Of a DNA stretch of 61,332 bases, positions 14,694 through 19,795 are shown piece by piece; position 1 is the stretch's first letter, and each line of letters opens with the position of its first letter. The position numbers and the translations under genes are program-made. This DNA comes from a virus: positions 1 through 61,332 of IMG/VR virus record IMGVR_UViG_3300028883_000051. One strand, given 5' to 3'. The notes below the pieces were generated by a model that made no database searches, had not been told where the DNA came from, and was given only the letters and a program-made list of their open reading frames with translations.

Positions 14694-14905
14694 TACCAGA
14701 AGAATGGCTTGAAGTCTTTAAAACCGCCGATATAATACATCAAATGAATATCGCCGTTATAATATCCCACGGAAGTATTACTATTTCTTATGCTGGTGAC
14801 GGCACGTGTCTTGATAATTTAAAACACTGTATGGAACTTTGGCGGAAAATAGATAAAGATATACGTTTTGAAGATTGCAGTTTATCGTTGGAGTATATGA
14901 GATAA
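14690..14905 (+). CDS. Hypothetical protein (GTG start)
   Basis: 71 residues, starting with the GTG that overlaps the previous stop (GTGA). Strand 'IAVIISHGSITISYAG' and helices around it. Not recognised. Its stop overlaps a possible 23-codon frame (TAATG). Confidence 0.6.
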   Translation: MIPEEWLEVFKTADIIHQMNIAVIISHGSITISYAGDGTCLDNLKHCMELWRKIDKDIRFEDCSLSLEYMR

Positions 14906-14976
14906 TGTCAATCGTTTTATTTCTTACGTTATGTTTTCTCTGTTATTTGTTTATTAATGGGGATGACAGGATTTAG
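14905..14976 (+). CDS. Possible 23-residue membrane microprotein
   Basis: ATG overlaps the previous stop (TAATG). The product 'MSIVLFLTLCFLCYLFI...' is almost entirely a hydrophobic helix with a charged C-terminus (GDDRI). The last 18 bases overlap the 5' end of the tRNA-like RNA at 14959, which weakens the case. The same TAATG-coupled layout encodes another 23-residue membrane peptide at 59953-60024. Confidence 0.4.
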   Translation: MSIVLFLTLCFLCYLFINGDDRI

Positions 14977-15031
14977 ATTACCGGGCTTACATTTAGACGG
15001 TAACACCCCGGTTCGATTCCGGGCATCTCCA
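14959..15031 (+). tRNA. tRNA-like RNA without D-stem or standard anticodon arm (tmRNA tRNA-like-domain mimic?)
   Basis: A 7-bp acceptor stem (14959-14965 with 15024-15030) ends in an unpaired A (15031). A perfect T-arm (CCCGG, TTCGATT, CCGGG; 15007-15023) is canonical. The third acceptor pair is G:U, the alanine identity element, with A73. The 41-base middle has normal length but no D-stem and no standard anticodon stem. Instead 14978-14982 (TTACC) pairs with 14999-15003 (GGTAA), extended by a few inner pairs. The unpaired ACAGGATTTAGA recalls the D-loop region of tmRNA. CCA is not encoded. A decayed tRNA is the main alternative. Confidence 0.55.
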
Positions 15032-15033
15032 CT

Positions 15034-15096
15034 AACTGCAATGCCCTTACCTTACTTTACTTGGACGTGAAAGCGGGGGGTATTGCAGTTTTTTTT
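15034..15096 (+). terminator. Intrinsic terminator
   Basis: A 13-bp stem, AACTGCAATGCCC (15034-15046) with GGGTATTGCAGTT (15078-15090; one G:T pair), is followed by a run of T. It ends the operon that starts at 11207 and begins only 3 bases after the tRNA-like RNA. Confidence 0.88.
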
Positions 15097-15146
15097 ATTT
15101 ATGCTATAATGAAAATTGAATTATATAACACAAAGGAGTGTTTTCT

Positions 15147-16244
15147 ATGAAGGTTTTTGGGTATCATATGGGGCCGAATTATCACGGAAATAGGCTTTTA
15201 GATTTATATGGACGTGGTAAGACTCCGGCTGTAGCCCTTACATTACTTGATAACAGAGAAGGTATTCCTGAGCTTATTCACCAGCATCCTGAAACGATGA
15301 TTATTGCACGCCGCTGGTGGGCGGGAAATAATCCAAATGGGGATGATAACGCTCAGGATTACATGGAAGGTGATGCTTATATGGATGGGCTTGTTACTTT
15401 CTACGGAAAGAACAAGGATGCTTACTACTACGTAGGCAATGAGCCGACACCTGCGACGTTACAGGATAAATTGCGGCTTGTTGAATTTCTGGAAAAAGCC
15501 GTAAAGTATGCCGTCGATTACGGTTACAAAATTGTTATCGGTAATTTCTCTGTCGGTAATCCGTCAACTGCGGATATTACAGGTGTTCTTTCTCCTATCT
15601 TCCGTCTTGTTGAAAAGTATGATAACGTCTATCTCGGTATGCACGATTATGGCGCATATCGTGGTCGCCGTCCCGACGGTAGCCCGGATGTATTCTTTCC
15701 TAATAAAGCGGCAGAAATCGTACAGCATTTTCCCGGCTGCTTCAATAAAATTATCCTTACAGAGGTTGGGCTTGATCGTCTCGTCCAATTTCCAAACAGC
15801 GGTAGTTGGAAAAAGGTACGGCTTACCGATGAAGAATATGCCGATGTACTACACCGGATGTACGTAGATTACTGGCGTTTTGCTGGCGTAATCGGTGCTT
15901 GTGTGTTCTTTTGGGATACTGATGAACACCGTTGGGGCGATTATAATATGTACCGCGCATCGGCGTTCCAGAATCGCGTATTGCAAACGGATCAGCTTCT
16001 TGTACTTCCGCCTACTACCGGGGATGATGATGACGATGACGATGATACACCGCCATCACTTCCACCGGAAATTGAACTTGATGATATAGAGGATGCGCTT
16101 ACCGAACTGGTTAGCATTATCAATGAAATCAAGGCTGCGCTGTCAAGTATCGATGGAGCTTTTTCGCTGGTAATTAATAACACAACGGAAAGTTATAATC
16201 TGGCGACACAGCTACTTGATAAAATTCAAGAACTAAATGATTAA
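15147..16244 (+). CDS. Clan GH-A-like glycoside hydrolase, candidate cell-wall lysin
   Basis: 365 residues from the ATG at 15147 (AAGGAG 8 bases upstream; the frame also opens at a GTG at 15138). Residues ~1-280 look like a TIM barrel: acid/base in 'YYVGNEPTP' (E99), nucleophile in 'ILTEVGLD' (E206) and an aromatic 'FFWDTDEHRWGDY' near strand 8, the pattern of clan GH-A. Next come a linker with eight Asp (residues 293-300), 'PPSLPPEIE' and a ~55-residue coiled coil. No signal peptide. It stands alone between two terminators. No other endolysin is evident in the window, so a lysin role is inferred. Confidence 0.7.
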   Translation: MKVFGYHMGPNYHGNRLLDLYGRGKTPAVALTLLDNREGIPELIHQHPETMIIARRWWAGNNPNGDDNAQDYMEGDAYMDGLVTFYGKNKDAYYYVGNEPTPATLQDKLRLVEFLEKAVKYAVDYGYKIVIGNFSVGNPSTADITGVLSPIFRLVEKYDNVYLGMHDYGAYRGRRPDGSPDVFFPNKAAEIVQHFPGCFNKIILTEVGLDRLVQFPNSGSWKKVRLTDEEYADVLHRMYVDYWRFAGVIGACVFFWDTDEHRWGDYNMYRASAFQNRVLQTDQLLVLPPTTGDDDDDDDDTPPSLPPEIELDDIEDALTELVSIINEIKAALSSIDGAFSLVINNTTESYNLATQLLDKIQELND

Positions 16245-16281: not shown

Positions 16282-16362
16282 GCCGATGTGGTGGAATGGC
16301 AGACACGGTTGACTTAAAATCAACTGCCTTTGGGCGTGTGGGTTCGACTCCCACCTTCGGCA
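16282..16362 (+). tRNA. tRNA-Leu (anticodon UAA)
   Basis: 81 nt class II tRNA: acceptor GCCGATG/CTTCGGC with one T:T mismatch, anticodon stem GTTGA/TCAAC with loop CTTAAAA (anticodon TAA), extra arm around TGCC..GGGC, T-arm GTGGG-TTCGACT-CCCAC and A73. CCA is not encoded. It overlaps the antisense 3' end of the candidate small terminase gene. Confidence 0.92.
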
Positions 16363-16922
16363 CTTTCTATTTCATTAAAATCTCCCTCTATCGGTTCAAG
16401 CCCGGCTTGTACCTTTTCAACATCGATATTCTGAGGGAGCATTTCAAGCTGTTGTAAGACCAATAAAACATCTTCTACCTGATTAGGATTACTGGCAGAA
16501 GGTGTTTTCTTTTTCTCTGTTCCGGCAGGAAGCGCCCGCATACCATCTTCTGTATACTCGATAGGCTGATCAGCCTGCCACAGCACCTTAAGCTCCTTAA
16601 GGGCCTTCATGGCGGTATCTAGTAGACGGCTATCACCTGATTTTGTAGGATTACCGTCGTCGTCTGGTTGTGTACTGCGTTCCCACGCCTTCATAGCCTG
16701 ATTATAAATGGATGTATATTGTCGTGTTTGCATGATTTTAATTTCTGCAACGGCATTACCCATCTGCTTTAAGTAGTATTCCTGTTCCTCTTTTACCTGT
16801 CGGCGTAACTGCCCGATAGGTACATCAAGCTGTGTCGCAAGCTCCTGTATCGTTTTACCAGAAGCAAGCTGATCAAGAATATATAAACGTTCGGGTAATG
16901 TCTCTGGTTTTGTTACTTTCAT
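16320..16922 (-). CDS. Candidate terminase small subunit
   Basis: 200 residues. Residues ~10-45 form a helix-turn-helix ('GKTIQELATQLDVPIGQLRRQVKEE'-type segment); the middle is helical ('NAVAEIKIMQTRQYTSIYNQAMKAWERS') and the tail low-complexity. DNA-binding HTH plus a helical oligomer region, near terL, fits TerS, although the gene is divergent from terL. The last ~14 residues ('SAEGGSRTHTPKGS') are the antisense translation of the tRNA-Leu, so the native C-terminus was probably replaced when the tRNA arrived. Confidence 0.6.
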   Translation of the reverse strand: MKVTKPETLPERLYILDQLASGKTIQELATQLDVPIGQLRRQVKEEQEYYLKQMGNAVAEIKIMQTRQYTSIYNQAMKAWERSTQPDDDGNPTKSGDSRLLDTAMKALKELKVLWQADQPIEYTEDGMRALPAGTEKKKTPSASNPNQVEDVLLVLQQLEMLPQNIDVEKVQAGLEPIEGDFNEIESAEGGSRTHTPKGS

Positions 16923-17529: not shown

Positions 17530-18087
17530 TTAGACTTTGGGTAGTGTGACTTCTTTCTTTTGCCCCTGATACTTGCCTTTTGTATCGGCGTATGAAGTTG
17601 TACAAACTTCATCTGCCCTGAAAAAAATAAGCTGCGCAATACCCTGCTTGGGGTAAATACGTAAAGGCTGTGGGGCGGTATTGGATAGTTCGATGGTAAG
17701 ATACCCTTCCCATTCCGGTTCAAGCGGCGTTACGTTTACGATAAGCCCACAGCGCGCATACGTGGATTTACCAAGGCATATGCCAAGAATATCACGTGGA
17801 ATTTTAAATTTCTCGTAGCTGTGTGCCAGTACAAAGCTGTTTGGTGGGATGACGATAGGGTTTTCAGCGATAATTTTCTTAAATTCAATTTCCCTGCTGT
17901 CACGTGGATCGATGATGCCGCCGCGTGCCTGCGAAAAGATAAAGAAGGTATCGCCAAGCCGGATGTCATAACCGTAACTACTTGGCCCGTAGGAAATAAC
18001 GCCATTTTTAAACTTAGTTGTTTCATACGGATAAATCATATTTTCTGTTACACAACGGTGTATAATCTGATGATCTGCAAGAGGCAT
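17530..18087 (-). CDS. dcd: dCTP deaminase
   Basis: 185 residues. '[16 protein letters not shown]' near residue 36, '[12 protein letters not shown]', '[19 protein letters not shown]', '[13 protein letters not shown]' and the C-terminal '[13 protein letters not shown]' that closes the active site match the trimeric dUTPase/dCTP-deaminase fold on the deaminase side. It converts dCTP to dUTP (or dUMP if bifunctional), feeding dTMP synthesis. It lies between an unknown 91-residue gene and tmk in one minus operon. Confidence 0.92.
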
Positions 18088-18401: not shown

Positions 18402-18430
18402 AGTATAACATATTGCTCATTCTTTGTCAA
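18402..18430 (-). promoter_or_regulatory. Sigma70 promoter of the dcd-tmk cassette
   Basis: Minus strand: TTGACA (18425-18430), 17-bp spacer ending in TATGT, TATACT (18402-18407). Back-to-back with the terL promoter; the two -35 boxes are 6 bp apart. Confidence 0.9.
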
Positions 18431-18436
18431 TTTAAT

Positions 18437-18465
18437 TTGACAAATAAAATCTTATATGTTATAAT
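18437..18465 (+). promoter_or_regulatory. Sigma70 promoter of the terminase-portal-capsid operon
   Basis: TTGACA (18437-18442), 17-bp spacer ending in TATGT, TATAAT (18460-18465), 28 bp before the terL ATG. Confidence 0.92.
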
Positions 18466-18493
18466 ATTAAAAGTTAATTTTTCAGAGGTGTTT

Positions 18494-19795
18494 ATGGATG
18501 ATAAATCAATGCTTCTGGAAAAGCTAACGCCGCGTATGACAAACTACATACCTGTAGTTCCTTCCGTAAAACAAACCGCCTTTTTATTATTAAATCATAT
18601 ACAAGAAGTTTTGTACGGAGGCGCAGCAGGTGGTGGTAAAAGTATTGCGTTACTTATGGCGGCTTTACAATATGTAGATCAACCTATGTACAATGCCATA
18701 ATTTTCAGGCGTACATATGCGGACTTGGCTTTACCGGGTGCGCTAATGGATGTAGCTTTTGAATGGCTTTCTAACACAGATGCAAAATGGCAAGATAAAC
18801 AAAAAACATGGCTATTTCCATCTGGCGCATCCTTATCCTTTGGGTACTTAGATACCGAGAATACAAAGTATCGGTATCAGGGTGCGGATTTTCAGTTTAT
18901 CGGATTTGACGAACTTACGCAGTTTTCGGAAAGCCAGTATCTTTATTTGTTTTCCCGTATGCGCAAGAATGAAAATAATCCTATTCCGTTACGTATGCGG
19001 GCGGCAAGTAATCCCGGCGGACGTGGGCATTATTGGGTACGAAAGCGTTTTATTTTACCTAAAGAGCCGACACCGGATCGTTTGTTTATACCCGCTACTC
19101 TTGAAGATAATCCTTATCTAAATAAAACGGAATATAAAAAAGCTCTTGGCAATCTGGATATGACGACAAAGCAACAGCTTCTAATCGGTGATTGGGATAT
19201 TACTGAGAAGGGGCTTATGTTTGATCGGGATTGGATTAATGTTATTGCTCCAATTGATGTTCCGGATGCTCATGAGTTTGACAAGATAGTTAGAGCGTGG
19301 GACTTGGCTGCGACAGAGCCACGTAGAGGTAATTCCGATCCTGACTATACTGTAGGGGTAAAGGTCGGACGGAAGGGGGAGAAGTATTTTATTCTCGATA
19401 TTGTTCGTTTTAGGGGCACGCCAAAGCAGACAGAGGATCAAATACTTACAACGGCGCGGGTTGACGGGCCTTTGATAGAAATATTTATTGAACAAGACCC
19501 CGGCGCTGCGGGGAAAACCGTAATGGAACATTTTCGTACCCTTCTTGTTGGGTATACCCTTACGGCACAGCGTCTTACAGGGGGCAAAGATACCCGCGCT
19601 ATGCCTGCTTCTTCTGCGGCACAAGCAGGACAGGTATTTGCAACAGAACAATTCTGGTTGTGGGATTTTTTGGCAGAGTTAGAAAAATTTCCATACGGTG
19701 ATCATGATGATCAAGTAGACGCTTTTGCAACAGCGGTAAATGCTCTACATCGTCCGTTTGAAGTAGAAGTGTTTAATAACCCATTTTATAAATAA
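18494..19795 (+). CDS. terL: Terminase large subunit
   Basis: 433 residues from the ATG at 18494 with AGAGGTG upstream. ATPase: Walker A 'YGGAAGGGKS' (41-50), Walker B 'FIGFDE' (D139, E140) and a coupling segment 'RMRAASNPGG'. Nuclease (RNase H fold): D270 in 'RAWDLAATE', acidic region 'FIEQDPGAAG', and 'GDHDDQVDAF' near 402-411. It packages DNA through the portal. All catalytic acids are present. Confidence 0.96.
   Translation: MDDKSMLLEKLTPRMTNYIPVVPSVKQTAFLLLNHIQEVLYGGAAGGGKSIALLMAALQYVDQPMYNAIIFRRTYADLALPGALMDVAFEWLSNTDAKWQDKQKTWLFPSGASLSFGYLDTENTKYRYQGADFQFIGFDELTQFSESQYLYLFSRMRKNENNPIPLRMRAASNPGGRGHYWVRKRFILPKEPTPDRLFIPATLEDNPYLNKTEYKKALGNLDMTTKQQLLIGDWDITEKGLMFDRDWINVIAPIDVPDAHEFDKIVRAWDLAATEPRRGNSDPDYTVGVKVGRKGEKYFILDIVRFRGTPKQTEDQILTTARVDGPLIEIFIEQDPGAAGKTVMEHFRTLLVGYTLTAQRLTGGKDTRAMPASSAAQAGQVFATEQFWLWDFLAELEKFPYGDHDDQVDAFATAVNALHRPFEVEVFNNPFYK

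Follow-up and report, generated by a model that had tools for sequence, protein, structure and literature searches.

Bacteria rescue stalled ribosomes with tmRNA; trans-translation is the tagging and proteolysis of unfinished proteins. Message-less forms of tmRNA are treated by Hudson et al. and in a 2025 tmRNA database paper, both of which cite an earlier study by Mao et al. from 2009. Mycobacteriophage DS6A carries a 'TLD only' tmRNA (tmRNA Website tmID 11587; PMC4131195, PMC11915505). According to Hudson et al., a molecule similar to TLD-only tmRNA strongly inhibits tmRNA, perhaps by titration of SmpB, and alanine charging is not needed (PMC4131195); the 2025 paper describes a search of RefSeq viruses, names DS6A as the phage example, and states that this form inhibits endogenous tmRNA in E. 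coli (PMC11915505). No wider description of phage message-less tmRNAs was found in the open-access literature. The kind of RNA considered here is already known from DS6A; its breadth is new, the papers naming one phage example.

The window analysed is the whole 61,332-nucleotide stretch of virus record IMGVR_UViG_3300028883_000051, and on its plus strand, at 14959-15031, is a 73-base RNA gene in which a tag message is absent. It is like the DS6A RNA, as that RNA is described, in being phage-encoded and in having little beyond the tRNA-like domain and no tag message; whereas DS6A is the single named phage example, the window RNA belongs, as a divergent member, to a much larger set. With canonical tmRNA (ssrA, RF00023) it shares the GGGG start, G3:U70, A73, a stemless D-loop like GGAUUCGA, a linker like GAC, the T-arm, and a helix that replaces the anticodon arm; in contrast to canonical tmRNA it has 73 nt rather than ~350 and lacks a tag reading frame, resume codon and pseudoknots. 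The message-less mitochondrial tmRNAs of jakobids and the ~65-bp plastid tmRNAs of Mallomonadaceae likewise have a tRNA-like domain without tag or pseudoknots (PMC3985003, PMC11915505), but these are organellar, the mitochondrial ones are usually permuted, and they are thought to serve the organelle and not infection. The tRNA-like domain fragment of PDB 2CZJ (co-structure with SmpB), made of the 5' 25 and 3' 34 residues of tmRNA and a UUCG loop, approximates the design of the short members described below (PMC3985003) but is artificial and without a CCA end. Phages Bxz1, Wildcat, G and Melnitz also have tmRNA genes, some in tRNA clusters (PMC4131195, PMC9004378); these differ in being full tmRNAs, in two pieces in Melnitz, and since they carry the tag message they would add tagging capacity rather than withhold it.

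The gene is housed in a 232-nt gap between an ORF ending at 14905 and an ORF starting at 15138, and reads GGGGATG ACAGGATTTAGA TTACCG GGCTTACATTTAGA CGGTAA CAC CCCGG TTCGATT CCGGG CATCTCC A. Its parts and 3' flank are as follows.

14959..15031, plus strand: TLD-only (message-less) tmRNA, 73 nt

14959..14965, plus strand: 5' strand of the acceptor stem, GGGGATG, including G3; 7/7 pairs with 15024-15030

14966..14977, plus strand: stemless tmRNA-type D-loop ACAGGATTTAGA, 12 nt, with equivalents of E. coli A15, U17 and G19 in the model alignments (SmpB contacts, PMC8363625)

14978..15003, plus strand: central helix (stump of tmRNA H2), TTACCG/CGGTAA, 6 bp, with a plain 14-nt loop

15004..15006, plus strand: 3-nt linker CAC, its A equivalent to A334 of E. 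coli tmRNA (SmpB Trp122 pocket)

15007..15023, plus strand: T-arm CCCGG-TTCGATT-CCGGG

15024..15031, plus strand: 3' strand of the acceptor stem, CATCTCC, with U70, then the unpaired discriminator A73

15032..15034, plus strand: CTA in place of CCA

15034..15096, plus strand: probable intrinsic terminator, hairpin 15034-15090 plus T run (fold of 15032-15100, -25.1 kcal/mol)

An earlier note on this DNA had described seven acceptor pairs including G3:U70, an unpaired A73 and a textbook T-arm, all of which are present. It gave the central helix as TTACC/GGTAA; the helix exists but is one pair longer. What it read as an unpaired linker does lack a stem of its own, but its identity is that of a tmRNA-type D-loop, the element that contacts SmpB. 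The note also placed the gene right before a terminator, and a probable one is there: a long hairpin and then eight T come immediately 3' of the mini-tmRNA, a feature missed by a simple terminator scan because that scan takes loops of 3-8 nt only. With CTA and not CCA after the discriminator, a CCA tail would need to be added after processing; encoded CCA is absent in many relatives too. In unconstrained folding a different shape is slightly better than the tmRNA-like one (-27.4 vs -23.6 kcal/mol).

The tmRNA model RF00023 aligns with 14959-15031 end to end (model positions 1-374; 43.2 bits, E 1.6e-17), a match well outside chance although its score is below the gathering cut-off of 47 bits. 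Between the two halves the window RNA has ~31 nt where the model has 328 positions, which leaves no room for a message or pseudoknots. In 13 bacterial genomes, no RF00023 match that is as short as a tRNA and otherwise lacks tmRNA features scores above 38.6 bits, leaving aside mini-tmRNAs, a 71-nt match of 47.8 bits (G001) and a 41-nt match of 39.3 bits (G013). Covariance model R1, trained on 22 other copies with the window copy left out, matches the gene over its full length in a search of the window (51.4 bits, E 7.8e-11). In a joint R1 search of 44 sources, clear mini-tmRNAs score 40-89 bits, twilight cases 31-35, and the best true tRNA, the annotated tRNA-Ala of phage pSt2308, 30.8; the window copy thus clearly belongs to the class, though it is divergent. 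Its divergence consists, in the R1 alignment, of GGATTTAGA with one inserted D-loop base and C18 changed to A, and of the CAC linker. No close ortholog of the window copy was found, and the covariation described below is that of the class. ARAGORN, named as a check in the earlier note, calls no tRNA at 14959-15031, nor does Rfam at its gathering threshold, the only call in the window being a tRNA-Leu at 16282; the RNA has no D-stem and no 7-nt anticodon loop, that is, no cloverleaf. As judged from its sequence, the window RNA is a message-less tmRNA, consisting of the tRNA-like domain of tmRNA only, closed by a short central helix.

Relatives were sought with pattern scans, three in viral contigs and one in bacterial genomes, covering chosen spellings of the D-loop and T-arm; full tmRNAs were barred from matching because gaps were limited. 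The pattern of scan 1, drawn from the architecture (GGGG, D-loop GGATT, T-arm, CTCCA), matched 76 stretches in viral contigs and 28 in bacteria and archaea (one genome per species, 84,980), the latter including tRNA false positives and ten Poribacteria. Scan 2 left the entire 5' acceptor strand and positions 63-70 unspecified, and its distinct matches form two well-separated sets, 41 having at least 6/7 acceptor pairs and 12 at most 5; G3:U70 is found in 41/41 of the former. Scan 3, with D-loop GGTTTCGAC, gave at least 120 stretches; among the matches listed, 93/94 distinct sequences have 7/7 acceptor and 5/5 T-stem pairs, and 93/93 have G3:U70. Thus G3:U70 occurs in 134/134 listed sequences (41 + 93) for which positions 3, 69 and 70 were unspecified. 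The union comprises at least 157 distinct relatives of 60-88 nt, which fall into at least 65 clusters (75% identity) and come from phages and a single bacterial clade, although sequence counts across the class are not independent events. The class consensus for the D-loop is GGATTYGA or GGTTTCGA. Plasmids gave no match; neither the 365-aa protein encoded next to the element nor an exact 24-base pattern retrieved relatives from viral contigs, and the relatives of the window terminase are short contigs (~50% identity) among which there is no ortholog of the element. BLAST matches in mycobacteriophages were set aside, since they covered the T-arm and lay either close to an integrase gene, at a probable attP, or within full tmRNAs.

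Two shapes are found: short members (~60-70 nt) close the central helix with a simple loop, and long members (at least 75 nt), which are commoner, have an inner hairpin. In the long sub-class this hairpin is often AAA-GCCGCAYGCGG-A and strongly conserved (e.g., L141:8001-8078). Some of the six twilight cases (L018, L039, L032, L067, L071, L078) may be odd alanine tRNAs. Two of them, L018:451-517 and L039:6719-6785, have G3:U70 and a central helix with the 7-nt loop TATGCAA (TGC at the anticodon position), and are possibly D-armless alanine tRNAs.

Carriers have no conserved gene neighbourhood in common: mini-tmRNAs lie in tRNA clusters, between protease and capsid genes, and near helicase, terminase, portal and kinase genes. 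Among isolated phages, Streptomyces phages pSt2308, BRock, LuckySocke (17977-18054 of OR725497.1), GiJojo and Alone3 have syntenic copies that are not annotated, each within a tRNA cluster, preceded by tRNA-Val and followed by tRNA-Ser genes; in GiJojo a hypothetical protein is predicted over the copy. Compensated changes distinguish their acceptor stems (GGGGCTG/CAGCTCC, GGGTTTG/CAAATCC, GGGTCTG/CAGATCC), all of which keep G3:U70; the T-stem of the Alone3 copy is damaged. In two related large phage records (L014 and L080, from G015 and G048; 99 and 211 kb), a mini-tmRNA accompanies a full-length tmRNA (128 bits). Ten Poribacteria genomes (loci L088, L090, L097, L098, L101-L104, L108, L109) have one mini-tmRNA each (64-70 bits), and seven of them a full tmRNA as well; in a sample of 59 Poribacteria genomes, made up mostly of the same carriers plus others, the mini-tmRNA is present in 10 or 11. 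The Poribacteria gene adjoins a pyridoxal-dependent decarboxylase gene and, in several genomes, a sodium/calcium exchanger gene too, a position which marks it as chromosomal. Standard annotation misses these RNAs: ARAGORN finds no gene in nearly all distinct copies run alone, and the public annotation of the Streptomyces phages is without them.

Pairing was counted in the 31 distinct clusters whose D-loop motif could be recognised. With the register fixed by the GA of the D-loop on one side and the 3-nt linker on the other, the central helix forms its first five pairs in 146/155 cases, compared with 76 +/- 6 expected under exchange of partners between sequences (maximum 97 in 2000 shuffles). 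In the same clusters 151/152 of acceptor pairs 4-7 (103 expected) and 113/114 of T-stem pairs 1-3 (52 expected) are formed, figures that partly mirror the filters used in picking sequences, whereas the central-helix figure does not. Counts were made on alignment A3, of equal D-loop length, because in the MAFFT alignment A1 D-loops of differing length push the acceptor strand out of place. In an alignment of 22 copies without that of the window, 99.5% of cells pair, and the covariation score is 0.738 vs 0.143 when shuffled and at most 0.144 when slid; in 11/17 pairs both partners change (104 such doubly changed cells vs 28 shuffled). Pair 3:70 of this alignment is always G:U, while acceptor pairs 4-6 take all Watson-Crick types across the class; that G3:U70 stays fixed where the pairs beside it vary freely indicates selection for alanine charging. 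The earlier note had held that a lack of compensatory changes, or a full-length tRNA of which this is a decayed copy, would speak against its reading; both were looked for and neither was found, the relatives compensating in the acceptor and central helices and being equally short. RF00023, the model from other copies and class-wide covariation all support its proposal of a minimal tmRNA-like RNA made by the phage.

We take A15, U17 and G19 of E. coli tmRNA to be the A, the second U and the G of its D-loop GGAUUCGA, and A334 to be the A of its 3-nt GAC linker. In cryo-EM structures of the E. coli tmRNA-SmpB complex, A15, U17 and A334 form a pocket that holds SmpB Trp122, and G19 stacks on SmpB; changing G19 to C prevents binding (PMC8363625). 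The linker A, which no scan specified, is A in 151/157 relatives listed, and in scan 1, which specified only GGATT of the D-loop, GA follows within the next two bases in 49/56. The window copy keeps all four equivalents, in GGATTTAGA and CAC. We infer SmpB to be the partner of the mini-tmRNAs, the conserved contact bases being the best evidence. No SmpB gene was found in 49 carrier records, so that host SmpB would be used.

With moderate confidence, we read the mini-tmRNA as an RNA that, charged by the host and bound to SmpB, competes with host tmRNA on stalled ribosomes; we infer its expression, charging, SmpB binding, ribosome entry and net inhibitory effect from sequence comparison. The phage transcript would be trimmed by host enzymes and receive CCA, and host alanyl-tRNA synthetase would charge it via G3:U70 and A73. 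Host SmpB would bind the D-loop and linker, standing in for the missing anticodon arm, and EF-Tu would bring the charged RNA to stalled ribosomes in rivalry with host tmRNA; as there is no tag message, the outcome would be less host trans-translation during infection. The RF00023 and R1 matches, covariation, alanine identity, the kept SmpB-contact bases, the lack of a phage SmpB and the published inhibition agree with this model. Against it, the L014 and L080 phages and the Poribacteria hold both a mini-tmRNA and a full tmRNA, for which permanent self-inhibition would be odd, and the window copy is divergent, with no close ortholog found. The published inhibition also had no need of charging (PMC4131195), yet the charging identity is invariant, which a pure sponge would not require; the RNA therefore probably acts on the ribosome and is not merely a sponge for SmpB. 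The suggestion in the earlier note of a decoy thus fits the published inhibition of tmRNA by a similar molecule, but the strict alanine identity suggests a charged, ribosome-entering RNA in place of a passive one. A large and almost unnoticed group of phage RNAs probably interferes with the rescue of stuck ribosomes in infected cells, and the number of distinct message-less tmRNAs, at least 157, suggests that such interference with host ribosome rescue is a common phage strategy. Its function is directly testable, since a copy is carried by several isolated phages that infect laboratory Streptomyces.

A more tentative reading, to which we give clearly less weight, is rescue without tagging: the charged, SmpB-bound RNA would receive the nascent chain, with repeated entry possibly adding alanines that no template encodes, and would free or reset the stalled ribosome, leaving the protein unmarked for destruction. 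Such a role has been suggested for message-less mitochondrial tmRNAs, those of jakobids, without tag or pseudoknots, being conserved together with SmpB (PMC11915505, PMC3985003). The invariant alanine identity, which a titrating decoy would not need, and the chromosomal mini-tmRNA kept by the Poribacteria clade also point this way. Nevertheless, no known step frees the peptide from a message-less tmRNA in the P site, and the published effect of a similar molecule is inhibition. If this reading were true, a branch of trans-translation that needs no message would operate in phages and in one bacterial clade.

An RNA that engages alanyl-tRNA synthetase or EF-Tu as a decoy, SmpB not being involved, is unlikely: conservation of G3:U70 and A73 is compatible with it, but it leaves unexplained the conserved tmRNA-specific D-loop and linker A, which are SmpB contacts and not determinants for the synthetase. 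Still more doubtful is a Y-RNA-like partner of Ro60, an idea raised by a Ro60/TROVE protein encoded by the window phage (55116-56684, minus strand, 40 kb from the mini-tmRNA; vWA_Ro60 and TROVE domains, ~27-29% identical to actinobacteriophage Ro-like proteins) and by the tRNA mimicry of bacterial YrlA RNAs. TROVE occurs in 5/32 and 2/28 carrier records (7/60) vs 0/22 non-carriers, but most carriers lack it and the association is too weak to build on; moreover, a charging-competent acceptor stem is not a Y-RNA trait, and no Rfam Y RNA was found at the element or near the Ro gene. Equally doubtful is a decayed or aberrant alanine tRNA, as its tRNA-like length and outer stems and the TGC loop triplet of the fringe cases L018 and L039 might suggest, given that ARAGORN and Rfam tRNA searches are negative, a 7-nt anticodon loop is absent, and the relatives have tmRNA architecture and not a cloverleaf. 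Least probable is a piece of host tmRNA that integration (attP) or decay has left behind: phages commonly attach at tmRNA 3' ends, and such fragments turned up in the scans (L129, L132, L134), but attP copies hold the 3' half only, while the element also retains a D-loop and the 5' strand of the acceptor stem, and covariation links its two halves in relatives over at least 65 clusters.

The protein encoded right 3' of the mini-tmRNA (15138-16244, plus strand, 365 aa) contains an aspartate-rich stretch and has no Pfam or PHROGs match. The tRNA-Leu (TAA; 16282-16363, plus strand), ~1.3 kb downstream of the mini-tmRNA, overlaps the 3' end of a 200-aa ORF on the opposite strand. The terminase large subunit (18413-19795, plus strand) has its best phage matches in the Methanothermobacter archaeal viruses psiM100 and psiM2 (50% identity).
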